From: Arthrobacter sp. 260 | GTDB lineage: Bacteria > Actinomycetota > Actinomycetes > Actinomycetales > Micrococcaceae | Direction of reading: 5' to 3' | Length of the DNA stretch: 64,000 nt | NCBI RefSeq assembly: GCF_013116745.1 | Contig: NZ_JABFOE010000005.1 | Location: 124,001 to 188,000 of the forward strand | In this document: positions 9,251 through 14,280 of the stretch, one piece after another | Layout: every line of letters starts with the position of its first letter | How positions within the stretch are numbered: the first letter of the stretch is position 1 | The notes under the pieces: model-generated | What the model was told of the DNA's origin: nothing | The model's database searches: none | Seen by the model: the letters and a program-made list of their open reading frames with translations, nothing else | Made by a program: the position numbers and the translations under genes

Positions 9251-9646
9251 TCAGGGAGTCGCTGGCTCGCTCGTCTCGGCGTCCCACCCGCTGGCGCCGT
9301 AGTCCACCAGGGGGCGGACCTCGACGCTTCCATAGAGCGGCATGCTCTCTGCGATGGCGAGTGCCCCGGCAAGTTCCGGCACGTCGACGAGATAGAAGCC
9401 GCTGATGTGCAGTGTGCCAGCTGTGGGGTCCGGTTGCTCTCGGGGCTCTGGGCCGGCAAGAGACGGCTGGACCATAACCGCCGAGCGCACGGGTTCAAGT
9501 TCACCGCTATCCAGGTAGGCACCACCTTCGCGCACCCTGGCCTCGAAATCCATCCACGCCTGGTAATCGGCGTCGCCGCCAAATCCCTCGGCGTAATCCT
9601 GCCCTTCGGGCACGTCCTTGGTCCACATCAGCAACAGGTATTTCAC
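9251..9646 (-). CDS. YCII-related domain protein
   Basis: A dimeric alpha-beta barrel (YCII/DGPF) protein beginning VKYLLLMWTKD and ending with the family-typical GFYLVDVPELAGALAIAESMP and VEVRPLVDY. Function in the family is unknown; members are often next to ECF sigma factors. I chose the GTG at 9646 because homologues begin with MKYLLL; an in-frame GTG at 9688 would add 14 unconserved residues. Neither has a strong ribosome site. An ECF sigma factor gene lies in the same orientation about 1 kb upstream. Confidence 0.75.
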   Translation of the reverse strand: MKYLLLMWTKDVPEGQDYAEGFGGDADYQAWMDFEARVREGGAYLDSGELEPVRSAVMVQPSLAGPEPREQPDPTAGTLHISGFYLVDVPELAGALAIAESMPLYGSVEVRPLVDYGASGWDAETSEPATP

Positions 9647-9730
9647 GGTACGGAGCCGAGGGGCAGGACCCGGCTCAACCTCCCTCACCGCATTAGACCA
9701 CAGCCTGCACGGCCCGGGAAGTACTGCTAC

Positions 9731-10123
9731 CTACTGGCCCTCGATCGCGAGGATCGTAATGTCGATCTCGCCAGGGGCCAGCCCACTGTCCTGGATTCTA
9801 CGAGCGATCAGGGCTTGAAGCTGCTCGGCAAGCCCCAGGGCCCGGTGCTCGACATCCGTCGCAATGTCGGCGCTGACGTGGACCCGGTCATCAGCGACTG
9901 TGAGAACCAGTCCATCCCGGGTGACGGTCGACGGTGCGCTGGCGGCGGCGCGGGAGCCCGGCTGGGTGGAAGCCACGAGGCTCACCTTGAACTTCCGGAT
10001 CATACTTTTCACCGTTGGCTCAAGGCGAAGGAGGCCCGGCTGCTCCATCAGCTCTGAGGTGAGTGAGTCGGCAAGCGCATCGAGGTCTGCGACCTGGTCC
10101 ACGAGAGGCTGATCAGACATCAT
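9731..10123 (-). CDS. Asp23/Gls24-like protein (short)
   Basis: A 130-residue protein I do not recognise as a named family. Its second half (DGLVLTVADDRVHVSADIATDVEHRALGLAEQLQALIARRIQDSGLAPGEIDITILAIEG) has the strand-helix-strand order of Asp23 domains and ends in the same kind of IDITI strand. The start is ATGATG at 10123, after GGAGG at 6 bases. It overlaps the upstream ZAS-Asp23 gene by 11 bp, so the sigma, fusion and this gene form one translationally coupled unit. Assignment to the Asp23 fold is inferred from pattern, not from strong identity. Confidence 0.7.
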   Translation of the reverse strand: MMSDQPLVDQVADLDALADSLTSELMEQPGLLRLEPTVKSMIRKFKVSLVASTQPGSRAAASAPSTVTRDGLVLTVADDRVHVSADIATDVEHRALGLAEQLQALIARRIQDSGLAPGEIDITILAIEGQ

Positions 10124-10688
10124 AAAGATCCTCCACAACAATATCGATCTGTTTCATGATGATTGACGTTTGGGCTTCGACCACTGTCCCCACACGCTCG
10201 CGCACCAGCGCCAGGGTCTCCGGGATCTTGACCGTCGAGGACAGGGCAACTGTGAGGGCGATGCGCACTTCTGTCGGGGTGGGACTGTCCAATGCTGGCC
10301 CCCGATTGTCGGCATGTATCTCGCAGCGACGGGCCCGGACGCCCGGCAGGGTCGACGCGGCGAACCGAATCAGCGCCACCAGGGCCTGCTCACTGATCTC
10401 GATTGCTCCGAGTGAGGTTCTCTTCAGCGGCGTTTTCTTACCACGACGGATTTCGGCCCGCGCGACGAGCATGATCGCTTCCTTGACCCGGCTTCCAGGC
10501 TGCAGTTCCGGGTCTATTTTGTCCCGTTCCCTCATGGACTCTGTGACGGCCGCCAGGTGATACAGCGAGTTTCTTGCGCTCTGACAGTCAGCGCACGATT
10601 GCTCATGTGCGGTCGGGGGTTCATCGATGGATGCCCAGAACTCGTCGAGTTCACGGCCGCACCCCAGGCGGGAATGGTCATTGTTCAT
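10113..10688 (-). CDS. Asp23/Gls24 domain protein with N-terminal anti-sigma-like zinc motif
   Basis: A 191-residue protein with two parts. Residues 1-40 contain HEQSCADC, H28-x3-C32-x2-C35, with His5 and Cys10 upstream; this is the ligand pattern of ZAS zinc-binding anti-sigma domains. After a basic linker (RRGKKTPLKRTS), residues 94-191 form an Asp23 domain: GAIEISEQALVALIRFAAS, then LPGVRARR, then VRIALTVALSSTVKIPETLALVRERV, and a final IDIVVEDL. The start ATG at 10688 overlaps the sigma factor stop as ATGA; an ATG two codons upstream also exists. There is no transmembrane segment. Its place directly after an ECF sigma gene suggests it is the cognate anti-sigma or a sensor for it; this is inference. 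Confidence 0.75.
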   Translation of the reverse strand: MNNDHSRLGCGRELDEFWASIDEPPTAHEQSCADCQSARNSLYHLAAVTESMRERDKIDPELQPGSRVKEAIMLVARAEIRRGKKTPLKRTSLGAIEISEQALVALIRFAASTLPGVRARRCEIHADNRGPALDSPTPTEVRIALTVALSSTVKIPETLALVRERVGTVVEAQTSIIMKQIDIVVEDLYDV

Positions 10689-11404
10689 CGCCATGGTTCC
10701 ATCCCTTCTGCTAAGAATCGTTTCGCCCGGGCTATCCGTCCCCGGACTGTGCTTTCAGGCAGTTGAACGATCGCTGCAATGTCGCGGTAGGAAAACTCGT
10801 GAACTTCTTTCAGTAGCCAACACGCCCGCGGTCCCGGGGGTACTGTCTGGAGCAGATCGGACAACGCCCGCATCTGCGCCTGGTTCTCATATTCGCTGGC
10901 AGGATCCGCCAGTGGACCCTTACCGATACTAGTCCTGGACTCAGCAGACTCCTGGCCGCTGTCGTTTTCGTCGTGCGGTTGTTCGGGCCTCCGCTTGCGG
11001 GTACGGAGCAGGTCGAGGCACTTGTTGGTCGCAGTTCGATACAGCCAGGGGATGAATGCCTGGGGAACTTTCAGGTCGGGCAGCGCCCGCCAGGCACTGA
11101 TGAAGGTTTCCTGAACCAGGTCTTCAGCCTCTGACCGGTCGTTGAGCATCCGCAGGCATAGCCGGTACAGCCCACCCTGGTACTCGGAAATGAGCCATTC
11201 AAAAGCCTCAACATCCCCGTCCTGCGCACGATTGATTATCGTGACTTCATCGATCTCATCCAGGGGCATCCACACCCGAGCATCGGGGTCGCCGTCCTGC
11301 TGGAACCCGCCCTGAGAATCACCCATCCCCGGGAACGATTCGTCCCCGGCGTCCTTCCCGGGCTGACGGGGGTGCTCCCGTCCGGGAGCTTTCGTCTCAT
11401 CCAT
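10685..11404 (-). CDS. ECF RNA polymerase sigma factor
   Basis: A 239-residue sigma-70 family protein of ECF type. After an unusual hydrophilic N-terminal extension of about 50 residues, region 2 runs from INRAQDGDVEAFEWLISEYQ through SEAEDLVQETFISAWR to FIPWLYRTATNKCLDLLRTR. A charged linker follows, and then region 4, VPPGPRACWLLKEVHEFSYR with the helix-turn-helix AAIVQLPESTVRGRIARAKR. I chose the ATG at 11404, after AGGAAGAG at 5 bases; a GTG two codons upstream is also open. It heads a leftward operon with two Asp23-like genes and diverges from the Asp23 operon to the right, which it probably controls (inference). Confidence 0.9.
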   Translation of the reverse strand: MDETKAPGREHPRQPGKDAGDESFPGMGDSQGGFQQDGDPDARVWMPLDEIDEVTIINRAQDGDVEAFEWLISEYQGGLYRLCLRMLNDRSEAEDLVQETFISAWRALPDLKVPQAFIPWLYRTATNKCLDLLRTRKRRPEQPHDENDSGQESAESRTSIGKGPLADPASEYENQAQMRALSDLLQTVPPGPRACWLLKEVHEFSYRDIAAIVQLPESTVRGRIARAKRFLAEGMEPWR

Positions 11405-11735
11405 TTTCACTCTTCCTCGACAACACTATCCATCAACCTCGTCCGAGATTTCCATCCTTCCCGGGGCGAGAACCCGTCGAGATAGACACCAGCATAAGGT
11501 AAGCAGCCTGCTGGTCTGGGCACCGGGTTCCACCCGGTATGAAGCACCTTCCGTCGCCAATGGCCCTCCCACGTTTCTGGTCTGAGGGGGTCTAGCCCGT
11601 TGAAACTGGTGAATAAATCCGTTGGCCGGTTGCTGAACAAAAAAAGTTTCACATCTCGCGTGAGGAATGAACGGCCGCTGCGTCTTACCTATGTAAACCA
11701 GAAGCTATATGCGCCTTTGAGGAGATTAGATTCAC
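11405..11735. promoter_or_regulatory. Divergent intergenic region between the sigma factor and Asp23 operons
   Basis: 331 bp with no credible gene. The right third is AT-rich and contains a run of seven A residues after TTGCTGAAC. It leads to GAGGAG, an ideal ribosome site 11 bases before the Asp23 ATG. A perfect 7-bp hairpin, ACCGGGT (11522-11528) and ACCCGGT (11532-11538), sits in the sigma-proximal half. The region must hold both promoters; I could not pick out a convincing -35/-10 pair by eye. Confidence 0.5.
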
Positions 11736-12251
11736 ATGTCAGACGAACAGAATTCACGTCGCACCGCCGTTGTCCCAGCTACTGGTGAAGAGCAGCAGCG
11801 CCGGGCTGACCAGAAGTCGAAGGACGCCGACCGGAAAGAAAATGTTGGGCCTCTTCAGACCGACATGGGCAACACCACCATCACCGAAACGGTGGTTCAG
11901 AAGATCGCTGGCATCGCTACCCGCGAGGTACCGGGCGTCTACGCAATGGGCAGCGCCGGCCGCCGGGCATTCAGCAATCTGACCGAACGCATCCCCGGCT
12001 CCCAGACCAACGTTAGCGGCGGCGTCAGCGTTGAAAAGGGCGAACGGCAGGCCGCGATCGACCTGACCATCGTCGTCGAGCACGACGCTTCGATTGTCGA
12101 GATCAGCCAGATGATCCGGCGGAACGTCATTTCGTCAGTCGAGGACGCCACCGGACTGGAAGTGATCGAGGTCAACATCAACGTTGCTGATGTCCACCTC
12201 CCCGAGGATGACCAGGACCAGGACAACTCGAACCACAAAGACCTTCAGTAG
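11736..12251 (+). CDS. Asp23/Gls24 family envelope stress protein
   Basis: A 171-residue protein with a polar N-terminus (about 45 residues), then a full Asp23 domain: TTITETVVQKIAGIATREVPGVYAMG, VEKGERQAAIDLTIVVEHDA, and ATGLEVIEVNINVADVHLPED. In Firmicutes Asp23 is an abundant membrane-associated cell-envelope stress protein anchored by AmaP. The C-terminus is acidic (EDDQDQDNSNHKDLQ). It is first in a rightward operon and has an excellent GAGGAG site. A strong hairpin follows its stop, so it may be made in excess over the downstream genes. Confidence 0.9.
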   Translation: MSDEQNSRRTAVVPATGEEQQRRADQKSKDADRKENVGPLQTDMGNTTITETVVQKIAGIATREVPGVYAMGSAGRRAFSNLTERIPGSQTNVSGGVSVEKGERQAAIDLTIVVEHDASIVEISQMIRRNVISSVEDATGLEVIEVNINVADVHLPEDDQDQDNSNHKDLQ

Positions 12252-12262
12252 GTCCCACAGAC

Positions 12263-12294
12263 GCTGACCGGCGCACCCCCTAGCGCCGGTCAGC
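12263..12294 (+). terminator. Perfect 12-bp hairpin after the first Asp23 gene
   Basis: GCTGACCGGCGC (12263-12274) pairs perfectly with GCGCCGGTCAGC (12283-12294) around an 8-base loop, 11 bases after the Asp23 stop and within the operon. No T-tract follows. It is probably a partial terminator or an mRNA-stabilising structure that sets a high ratio of the first gene to the rest. Confidence 0.55.
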
Positions 12295-12409
12295 CCAGAA
12301 GGTGCTGCGCGGAACAACATCCATCTCAGCGGATCCGCGCAGCATCTTCCCACCATCTGCCCTGCGACCCTCATCGCTCGGCTCCATCGCATCAGAAAAG
12401 GCAACCACC

Positions 12410-12592
12410 ATGAACACGACAGCCCTTGGCCTCCTCGCAGGTCTCTTCCTGGGACTCGCAGCAGCATTCGGAGGATTCTCTGAATTTCTGATTGTCGCCG
12501 CCTTCGGTGCCCTCGGCCTCCTAGCAGCCAGGGTGATCGAAGGAAAGCTTGACCTCAGCGCACTCACCGGCCGATCGAGCTCCCGCAAATGA
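12410..12592 (+). CDS. Small DUF2273-like membrane protein, 60 aa
   Basis: A 60-residue protein starting MNTTALGLLAGLFLGLAAAF with a second hydrophobic stretch FLIVAAFGALGLLAARVIEG and a short basic tail. Two closely spaced membrane segments with a Gly-rich pattern are typical of the DUF2273 proteins that accompany Asp23 and AmaP genes. The next gene starts inside its stop codon (ATGA overlap), so the two are coupled. The function is not known. Confidence 0.75.
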   Translation: MNTTALGLLAGLFLGLAAAFGGFSEFLIVAAFGALGLLAARVIEGKLDLSALTGRSSSRK

Positions 12593-12999
12593 CCGCAACC
12601 CAGCACCCACGCAGGATAGTGGGCAGTGAGCACCGCGACTCTGGCGCCCGCGGAACGCTGACCATCTCCGAGAAGGCCATCGAGAAGATCGCGGGGCAGG
12701 CCGCGGCGGAGGTTCCTGGTATCCACGGAACCTCCGGTGGCTTCCTGGGCCTCGGATCCCACAGTGATGAAGACGCCCGGCCGAAGGTCAAAGTGCAGCT
12801 GAGCGGTCGCATTGCCGCACTGCACATTAGTGCTGGGGTGAAGTACCCGGCACCTCTGCGGGTAACCACTGATCGCCTTCGCCAGGCAGTCAAGGACAAG
12901 GTGAACGCATCCTGCGGAATCGAGGTCCGCCAGATTGATATCGATGTCCAGACACTTGTCAGTGCCGCCACCACCCCGGGAAGAAGAGACCTCCTATGA
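12589..12999 (+). CDS. Asp23/Gls24 family protein (second copy of the operon)
   Basis: A 136-residue Asp23-domain protein: RGTLTISEKAIEKIAGQAAA, EVPGIHGTSGGFLG, VQLSGRIAALHISAGVKYPA and a C-terminal IDIDVQTLV. Compared with the first copy, it lacks the long polar N-terminus and carries a Gly-rich insertion after VPG. It overlaps the DUF2273 gene and the following DUF6286 gene by 4 bp each, so all three are translationally coupled. Confidence 0.88.
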   Translation: MTATQHPRRIVGSEHRDSGARGTLTISEKAIEKIAGQAAAEVPGIHGTSGGFLGLGSHSDEDARPKVKVQLSGRIAALHISAGVKYPAPLRVTTDRLRQAVKDKVNASCGIEVRQIDIDVQTLVSAATTPGRRDLL

Positions 13000-13562
13000 G
13001 TAAGAAGCCCGTCTCACAGTCGCTACGGCGGAGATCCAGCAGGGCGCTCCCCGCTGCGATCGCCGCGCTGGTGCTCCTTACCGCCGCAGCGCTCGCAATC
13101 TGGGGATCCGTTGCCTATCTGACCACCGGCATGTGGCCGGCATTCCTTTCAGGACCCAACGATCTGGCGGCCTCCCTTAACTGGAACGCACCCATCGTCT
13201 GGGTGGCCTCAGGGGTGGCGCTCCTCCTCGGAGTGGTCCTGCTCCTCGCGTCCCTCCTCCCCGGGAAGCACACGTCCATCCGGATTGGCGGCACCCAGGA
13301 GACCAACCATGCCCTGTCTGAATCGGTGATCAGCCGCCAGGGACTGGCCAGGTTGACCGGTGCCCTTGTTGATCAAACCGACGGCATCAGATCGAGTTCA
13401 GTGGCGGCGACGGCCCGCGTAGTCAAGGTCAATGCCAGGAGCACCCTCCATGATGCCGGAACTCTGTCGACTGAGCTGAAGGCGATGTTGACGCAGGAGT
13501 TCCAATCAATGGGTCTCACCCCGGTTCCCCGGGTCCGCGTTAACGTCCGTCCCTCCGCCTAA
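12996..13562 (+). CDS. DUF6286-like membrane protein of the Asp23 operon
   Basis: A 188-residue protein with a basic N-terminus, a first membrane segment (ALPAAIAALVLLTAAALAIW) and a second (WVASGVALLLGVVLLLASLL). A cytoplasmic domain of about 95 residues follows, ending VRVNVRPS. The layout, two membrane segments plus a small alpha/beta domain, matches proteins annotated DUF6286 that occur with Asp23 genes in actinobacteria. It probably tethers Asp23-type proteins to the membrane (inference). Confidence 0.7.
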   Translation: MSKKPVSQSLRRRSSRALPAAIAALVLLTAAALAIWGSVAYLTTGMWPAFLSGPNDLAASLNWNAPIVWVASGVALLLGVVLLLASLLPGKHTSIRIGGTQETNHALSESVISRQGLARLTGALVDQTDGIRSSSVAATARVVKVNARSTLHDAGTLSTELKAMLTQEFQSMGLTPVPRVRVNVRPSA

Positions 13563-13659
13563 CCACCGACTCCACCGTCCCAGCTGAAAACCGATTGATC
13601 GGGCTTCGGCACGTCGCGCTCCGCCACGGAGATGCACACTACAGAGATAAGGAACCAAA

Positions 13660-14280
13660 ATGAGGGAAACAGCCGGCACGCTCAACAGGACCTGGTTGGC
13701 CATCATTGCACTGCTGATGATTTTGGCAGGGACAGCGGGAATACTGCTTTCGAGTGGCCTCGCGGGTTCGCTAGCGGAATCCTCCGGGATCGGAATCTCC
13801 CCGGTCGGCCCCAACGAGCAGGTCTTCCCCGTTGCGCCGGGCGAGGTGCTAAACACTCCCCTGGCGGCCATTATTGTCACGGTAGTGGCTGCACTGGTGG
13901 GTCTTCTCGCCTTGGCGTGGCTCAGCGCACAGGTGCCCAAGCGCCATCAGGGAGATACCTTTCGACTCCACGGAAAGCAAGGATCGGATGGCTACACGCT
14001 GTGCGACCCCAGGGTGCTCGCCTCTGCCGTTGAATCGGAAACAGAAGCGCTACTGGGCGTCGCTTCGGCTTCCGCGATCCTTCGCGGCAGTGCCAACGAA
14101 CCGGAATTGAACCTCGACATCAAGATGGATGATCGGGCGAAAGTACAGCAGGTGATCGAAAGCGTGCACCGACAGATTGCACCAAATCTGGAATCCGCTC
14201 TTGAGGTTCCGTTGCGAAAGGTCGCGGTCCTTTTGAACGTCACGCGTCGTCCGTCGAGCGATAAAACTGCAGTGATCTGA
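13660..14280 (+). CDS. AmaP-like alkaline shock membrane anchor protein
   Basis: A 206-residue protein with an N-terminal membrane segment (TWLAIIALLMILAGTAGILL), an external loop, a second segment (AAIIVTVVAALVGLLALAWL), and a cytoplasmic domain ending VPLRKVAVLLNVTRR. This is the architecture of AmaP, which holds Asp23 at the membrane in staphylococci. It lies 97 bp after the DUF6286 gene; its position as the last large gene of the Asp23 operon supports the call. The name is by analogy; identity to AmaP was not tested. Confidence 0.7.
   Translation: MRETAGTLNRTWLAIIALLMILAGTAGILLSSGLAGSLAESSGIGISPVGPNEQVFPVAPGEVLNTPLAAIIVTVVAALVGLLALAWLSAQVPKRHQGDTFRLHGKQGSDGYTLCDPRVLASAVESETEALLGVASASAILRGSANEPELNLDIKMDDRAKVQQVIESVHRQIAPNLESALEVPLRKVAVLLNVTRRPSSDKTAVI

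Follow-up and report, generated by a model that had tools for sequence, protein, structure and literature searches.

The window analysed here, a stretch of 64,000 nucleotides from Arthrobacter sp. 260 (contig NZ_JABFOE010000005.1, positions 124,001 to 188,000 of the forward strand), carries an extracytoplasmic function (ECF) sigma factor gene followed, on the same strand, by a gene coding for an unusual fusion protein of 193 amino acids. This ASDI-Asp23 fusion protein (10113..10694, minus strand), in which a class I anti-sigma-like domain (ASDI) precedes an Asp23 domain, is likely an anti-sigma factor, as judged from its open reading frame, a conserved gene overlap, its homologues and Pfam. 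More specifically, we consider with a probability of about 0.6 that it is a soluble class I anti-sigma factor in which the Asp23 domain would act as the sensor and which would restrain a sigma factor controlling, from a conserved site, the operon of an Asp23 scaffold. The gene order, the overlap, the zinc motif, its conservation and the conserved site are all directly visible in the sequences compared.

Residues 1-88 of the fusion (10431..10694, minus strand) likely form a complete class I anti-sigma domain, as suggested by profile comparison and by predicted helices. A previous sequence-only reading of the window had related this N-terminus to zinc-associated anti-sigma (ZAS) domains, a relation that the profiles support. 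Indeed, when an alignment of residues 1-88 (35 rows) is compared by hhalign with 30 zf-HC2 anti-sigma segments taken from the genomes of relatives, the match reaches a probability of 90.7 (score 40.4, 74 columns), and the alignment with these zinc-type class I domains spans the full N-terminal length, helix 4 included. The reversed control gives a probability of 0.5 (0.52 at most) with a score of 9.7, and seven out of eight column-shuffle controls give at most 0.14 (score 5.4), the eighth yielding no alignment, while two subsets of the known zf-HC2 segments recognize each other with a probability of 98. Masking the ligands on both sides leaves a score of 24.0 and a probability of 34, with the register kept through helix 4; the zinc motif supplies much, but not all, of the anti-sigma profile signal.

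Class I anti-sigma domains are described as four helices in a fixed order, with a Hx3Cx2C motif across helices 2 and 3, and are known both with and without zinc (PMC7406223). The AlphaFold2 (AF2) model of the fusion, with a predicted local distance difference test (pLDDT) value of 75, places helices at residues 16-21, 29-33, 35-60 and 68-82 ahead of the Asp23 domain, and the model of the N-terminus alone (pLDDT 79) gives near-identical helices, the last two at 35-58 and 68-85. The predicted layout of three N-terminal helices, a linker and a fourth helix matches that of class I, and Hx3Cx2C spans predicted helices 2 (29-33) and 3 (35-60), which fits the definition of the zinc type. A fold search with the predicted N-terminal domain returned no solved anti-sigma structure among the matches listed. 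By sequence, the best solved-structure match of the fusion is found at the zinc motif with 3hug (E 0.089), which we take to be the SigL-RslA complex of Mycobacterium tuberculosis.

The motif HEQSCADC, recognized in the sequence-only reading, is present at 10584..10607 (minus strand), although its residues, formerly numbered H28, C32 and C35, are corrected to H30-x3-C34-x2-C37. A fourth candidate ligand, C12 (10659-10661, minus strand), had been left unlisted. These four residues show no exception in the 27 rows of alignment A1 that have the N-terminus (the remaining 4 of its 31 rows begin inside the fusion protein) and are invariant in the 45 rows of alignment A3. The renumbering goes with a start codon at ATG 10694, which is assigned because a start codon immediately 5' of the sigma stop codon, in the context (A/G)TGGCGx, is conserved in the window and in 25/25 named loci with the pair, whereas the ATGA formerly proposed at the sigma stop (start at 10688) occurs in only 6 of these 25. 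Just upstream of the conserved start codon, GAAGGGATG is found in 20/25 named loci. With ATG 10694, the fusion gene and the sigma gene overlap by 10 bp. The former anti-sigma interpretation as a whole is partly supported, by the N-terminal domain match and by the pairing with a sigma gene (42/42, see below), and loses the ATGA start.

The Asp23 domain assigned earlier to the C-terminal half was recovered as PF03780 at residues 95-190 (10125..10412, minus strand), with an E value of 7e-6 and 26.9 bits, below the cut-off of 28, when the protein is scanned alone, and with a score of 29.3, above this cut-off, once the neighbours of the fusion frame are included. PF03780 is also carried by P0001, 96% identical to the fusion, and matches 33/35 fusion members at E <= 1. 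Likewise, the identity of the gene in front (10685..11410, minus strand; start GTG 11410 or ATG 11404) as an ECF sigma factor gene is confirmed by its sigma-70 r2 (E 1.4e-20) and r4 (E 4.8e-11) regions.

The pairing of both genes extends far beyond the window. Scanning named genomes yielded 26 loci, in 25 of which the sigma gene, the Hx3Cx2C fusion and a small third gene (gene3) stand together; on the minus strand of the window, they follow each other in this order with short overlaps. A strong asp23a neighbour accompanies 24/26 named loci, divergently in 23 of them, the gene lying in Sanguibacter (L123) in front of the sigma unit on the same strand; in L105 the asp23a next to the sigma gene is broken, and none was found beside L124. 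The latter, from Arthrobacter sp. B0490 (also L045), is a remnant in which the sigma gene and the anti-sigma part have disappeared. What is left there is gene3 together with the Asp23 end of the fusion, and a neighbouring asp23 operon was not found. Wider profile searches matched the paralogue in 50/396 phylum genomes (E <= 0.001) and profile A2 in at least 179/393 class genomes, many of these matches being through Asp23 only. From other genera of the class, 48 loci were fetched, including 6 partial matches without the anti-sigma part (L198-L203) that were excluded, and four (L161, L157, L160 and L163) that come from the same genomes as L054-L057 of the phylum scan. All 42 remaining, full-length members are preceded by an ECF sigma gene in the same orientation. 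The same fusion, for which the sequence-only reading proposed a search in other actinobacteria, was thus found there together with its sigma gene. When the 26 close loci (window included), 5 of the paralogous type and the 42 class-wide ones are pooled, the sigma gene lies within 150 nt of the matched fusion start in 72/73 loci. The median overlap is 10 bp. Only L178 departs from this, its sigma gene being in front as well but more than 150 nt from the matched start. The sigma/fusion pair is old. Arthrobacter sp. 260 itself has a second sigma/fusion module with its own asp23 gene (contig C161:19064-22586, L033), the sigma factor of which is 39% identical to that of the window.

Divergently from the sigma gene and 325 bases away begins an operon (11736-14280, plus strand) with two asp23 genes. 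It comprises asp23a (11736..12251; PF03780, E 5.6e-28), a small DUF2273-like protein gene (12410..12592; PF10031, E 0.03, below cut-off), asp23b coding for a second Asp23 protein (12589..12999; PF03780, E 2.8e-14), a DUF6286 protein gene (12996..13562; PF19803, E 2.3e-21) and an AmaP-like protein gene (13660..14280; NF033218, E 3.2e-10, 40 bits, below the cut-off of 55). In front of this operon, at 11658..11686 (plus strand), lies a candidate ECF promoter, GCGTGA-N17-CGTCTT, conserved in the close loci. When the spacers between sigma gene and asp23a are aligned, the single conserved stretch upstream of asp23a is GCGTGA-N17-CGTCTT(T)ACC-TGTGTAC. A -10 element CGTC and a spacer of about 17 bp are usual for ECF promoters.

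The pattern CGTGA-N17/18-(C/T)GTC was counted over at most 400 bases upstream of asp23a and is found in 25/25 close loci, which are related and non-independent, in 3/3 paralogous modules and in 16/32 class-wide regions. L105 and L124 were left out of the 27 close loci, asp23a being broken or absent beside the sigma gene, as were 10 of the 42 class-wide loci, in which no asp23a was detected within the sequence fetched. An earlier, stricter pattern had matched 5/32 class-wide regions before dyad counting suggested (C/T)GTC, and the counts obtained with a pattern picked in this way describe more than they test, the fair controls being unlinked genes and antisense strands. Among 20 generic asp23 genes unlinked to this sigma factor, none has the pattern, and the antisense strands give 0 close, 0 paralogous and 1 class-wide match; the means after dinucleotide shuffling are 0.3, 0.005 and 0.5, respectively. 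In the whole genome of Arthrobacter sp. 260, 12 matches versus 11 for the backward control show no enrichment of the core GCGTGA-N17-CGTC alone, whereas the longer GCGTGASGAWT-N12-CGTCTTWMC, with up to 3 mismatches allowed, matches perfectly only at the window site and once more with 3 mismatches, against 1 match for the backward control. Similarly, CCGTGA-N18-CGTCTTA of the C161 module matches the genome perfectly only at that module and once more with 1 mismatch, against 2 matches for the backward control. This promoter-like site common to many relatives suggests that freed sigma factor would make more Asp23 scaffold, a predicted feedback loop.

In A. agilis (G008), an asp23a that is intact and stands some 43 kb away from the sigma gene still has the site (L204); a second copy in this genome has a masked upstream stretch. 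In the three genomes of the genus having a window-type asp23a without this sigma factor (G019, G031 and G033), the pair of promoter elements is absent, a similar stretch having CGAC for CGTC. Within the genus, the window-type fusion is present in 10/35 genomes (12 copies), and a window-type asp23a, defined by a line that we drew at >=190 bits, is present in 10/10 genomes with this fusion versus 3/25 without it. Because the two genes are neighbours, this co-inheritance is not independent evidence. As for the sigma gene itself, no such site was found before that of the window, and the pair precedes it in 6/72 loci, namely four f22 loci, L165 (f21) and L171. It is near the sigma gene in all four f22 loci and in L165, the copy in L171, about 330 bases away, not being counted, so that some members probably control the transcription of their own sigma factor, to judge from these sites. 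Arthrobacter sp. H41 carries the site a second time (L103:7593-8083), ahead of a PRC-barrel gene (PF05239, E 9e-10) that adjoins a CsbD gene (PF05532, E 6.3e-13), so that the stress regulon of this strain may be wider.

The zinc ligands are not kept everywhere. Hx3Cx2C is present in 31/42 class-wide members, and the 11 members without it all belong to one family, f19 (L157, L160, L161, L163, L168, L171, L173, L176, L180, L182 and L196); the four ligands are intact in the other 61 of the 72 aligned loci. In f19, H30 is replaced in 11/11 members and C12 and C34 are also gone in 7/11, whereas all three cysteines are kept in 4/11 and C37 in 11/11. Homologues lacking the cysteines beside a sigma gene, which the sequence-only reading held to be damaging for an anti-sigma role, do therefore exist in part, in this family only. 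This loss is not taken as refuting the anti-sigma domain because class I domains exist with and without zinc (PMC7406223).

The conservation of the ligands outside f19 could be read differently, the fusion being an RsrA-like anti-sigma factor in which the signal is the oxidative loss of zinc from C12, H30, C34 and C37 and in which the Asp23 domain is a mere tether or dimer part. The hhalign match is also better to an RsrA-like subset of zf-HC2 segments (probability 80) than to the other subset (38). However, the f19 members (11/72 loci) lost ligands while retaining the sigma gene, and TGACG-N16-CGTC still precedes asp23 in 4/8 f19 regions, so zinc is unlikely to be a general signal, even if metal binding could persist in the four f19 members with all three cysteines. 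Moreover, the presumed target is a scaffold operon and not a set of thiol enzymes. On balance, redox sensing of this kind appears unlikely as the main function.

A more radical objection is that the fusion may be just another Asp23 scaffold protein, in which a zinc knuckle has a structural role, co-made with a sigma factor controlled by its own transcription. Asp23 paralogues are plentiful in the cluster, and single-sequence scans with Pfam zf-HC2 match 0/35 fusion members at E <= 1, a weakness that counts against the anti-sigma interpretation. A mere scaffold protein nevertheless fits poorly with the whole-length profile match to anti-sigma domains and with the fixed position behind a sigma gene in 42/42 members, and it is regarded as quite improbable. 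Constant pairing cannot by itself separate inhibition from help, and the fusion might also be a positive partner that recruits the sigma factor to a membrane region or aids RNA polymerase binding; given the resemblance of its N-terminus to known inhibitory domains, such a role would be very surprising.

In the favoured scheme of an Asp23-sensing anti-sigma factor, residues 1-88 would bind and block the ECF sigma factor encoded just before the fusion. By similarity of profiles, the three-helix bundle would contact sigma region 4 and the fourth helix region 2, and in most members zinc would hold the bundle together. Once freed, the sigma factor would transcribe the divergent asp23-DUF2273-asp23b-DUF6286-amaP-like operon from GCGTGA-N17-CGTCTT. 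The Asp23 domain of the fusion, seen as the sensor half of the anti-sigma factor as already put forward in the sequence-only reading, may dock via Asp23-Asp23 contacts on a membrane scaffold made of the Asp23 and AmaP-like products of the operon, the state or amount of which might set how tightly the sigma factor is held. Loss of scaffold would then free the sigma factor, more scaffold would be made and the loop would close. Gene3 (9731..10120, minus strand; 129 aa), the third gene of the sigma unit, codes for a diverged Asp23-like protein that, at a guess, might help in scaffold contact. It is present in 26/26 named loci and has no Pfam match; hhalign gives a probability of 93 to the Asp23 domain of the fusion versus 1.7 to the Asp23a alignment. 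Gene3 is followed, also on the minus strand, by a gene for a YCII-like protein (window 9251-9688; PF03795, E 0.0093, below cut-off), which probably lies outside the sigma unit because none of the 26 named loci shows it in the sequence fetched.

In Staphylococcus aureus, Asp23 is membrane-bound through AmaP and forms filaments, and losing Asp23 or AmaP induces a cell-wall stress response (PMC6954212). In a Curtobacterium, Asp23/Gls24, CsbD and related genes rise upon drying (PMC12029717); by analogy, drying or osmotic stress would fit as the signal. A bolder and rather doubtful extension treats the anti-sigma factor as one of the Asp23 subunits, joining, or displaced from, an Asp23-AmaP lattice, so that assembly would directly gate the sigma factor that makes the lattice. 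Such a checkpoint would be comparable to FlgM-FliA in flagella and would have been kept across families of the class, with most zinc ligands lost in part of one family.

The fusion shares with RsrA, RslA, ChrR and RsiW the C...Hx3Cx2C ligands, a four-helix domain and a gene adjoining an ECF sigma gene. Behind the zinc-type class I domains of these proteins stands nothing, a cupin or a transmembrane sensor, whereas the fusion has Asp23 behind its anti-sigma-like domain. The S. aureus gene asp23 belongs to SigB, whereas here an ECF-type site precedes the operon and a divergent sigma/anti-sigma pair accompanies it. The likeness to the S. aureus Asp23-AmaP scaffold lies in Asp23 and AmaP-like proteins sharing one operon (PMC6954212).

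The groups ECF286 and ECF292 are encoded beside soluble Asp23-family proteins predicted as anti-sigma factors, the same arrangement as at this locus, and experimental data on their activation are lacking according to a review (PMC8999054). The pairing of a sigma factor with an Asp23 protein as an anti-sigma prediction is therefore already in print, and the sequence-only claim that no system with this domain join had been described does not extend to the pairing. The domain architecture, by contrast, was not found in the literature searched, and the ECF286/ECF292 account in that review mentions neither an anti-sigma domain or zinc motif nor a target promoter or mechanism (PMC8999054). Likewise, the N-terminal anti-sigma domain, the ligand loss in f19, the target site and the asp23-operon loop were not found in the literature searched, the original ECF classification paper, outside that search, possibly containing part of them.

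If the sigma factor of the window belongs to ECF286 or ECF292, these groups, set aside by the review for lack of data (PMC8999054), gain a possible domain-level mechanism together with a target site. Family f19, with ligands lost and sigma linkage retained, offers a natural experiment on the role of zinc in such domains. The molecular function of Asp23 has been called still unclear (PMC6954212). A likely anti-sigma factor bearing Asp23, together with a predicted target in the asp23 operon, makes the question of what the Asp23 scaffold senses directly testable in soil bacteria.
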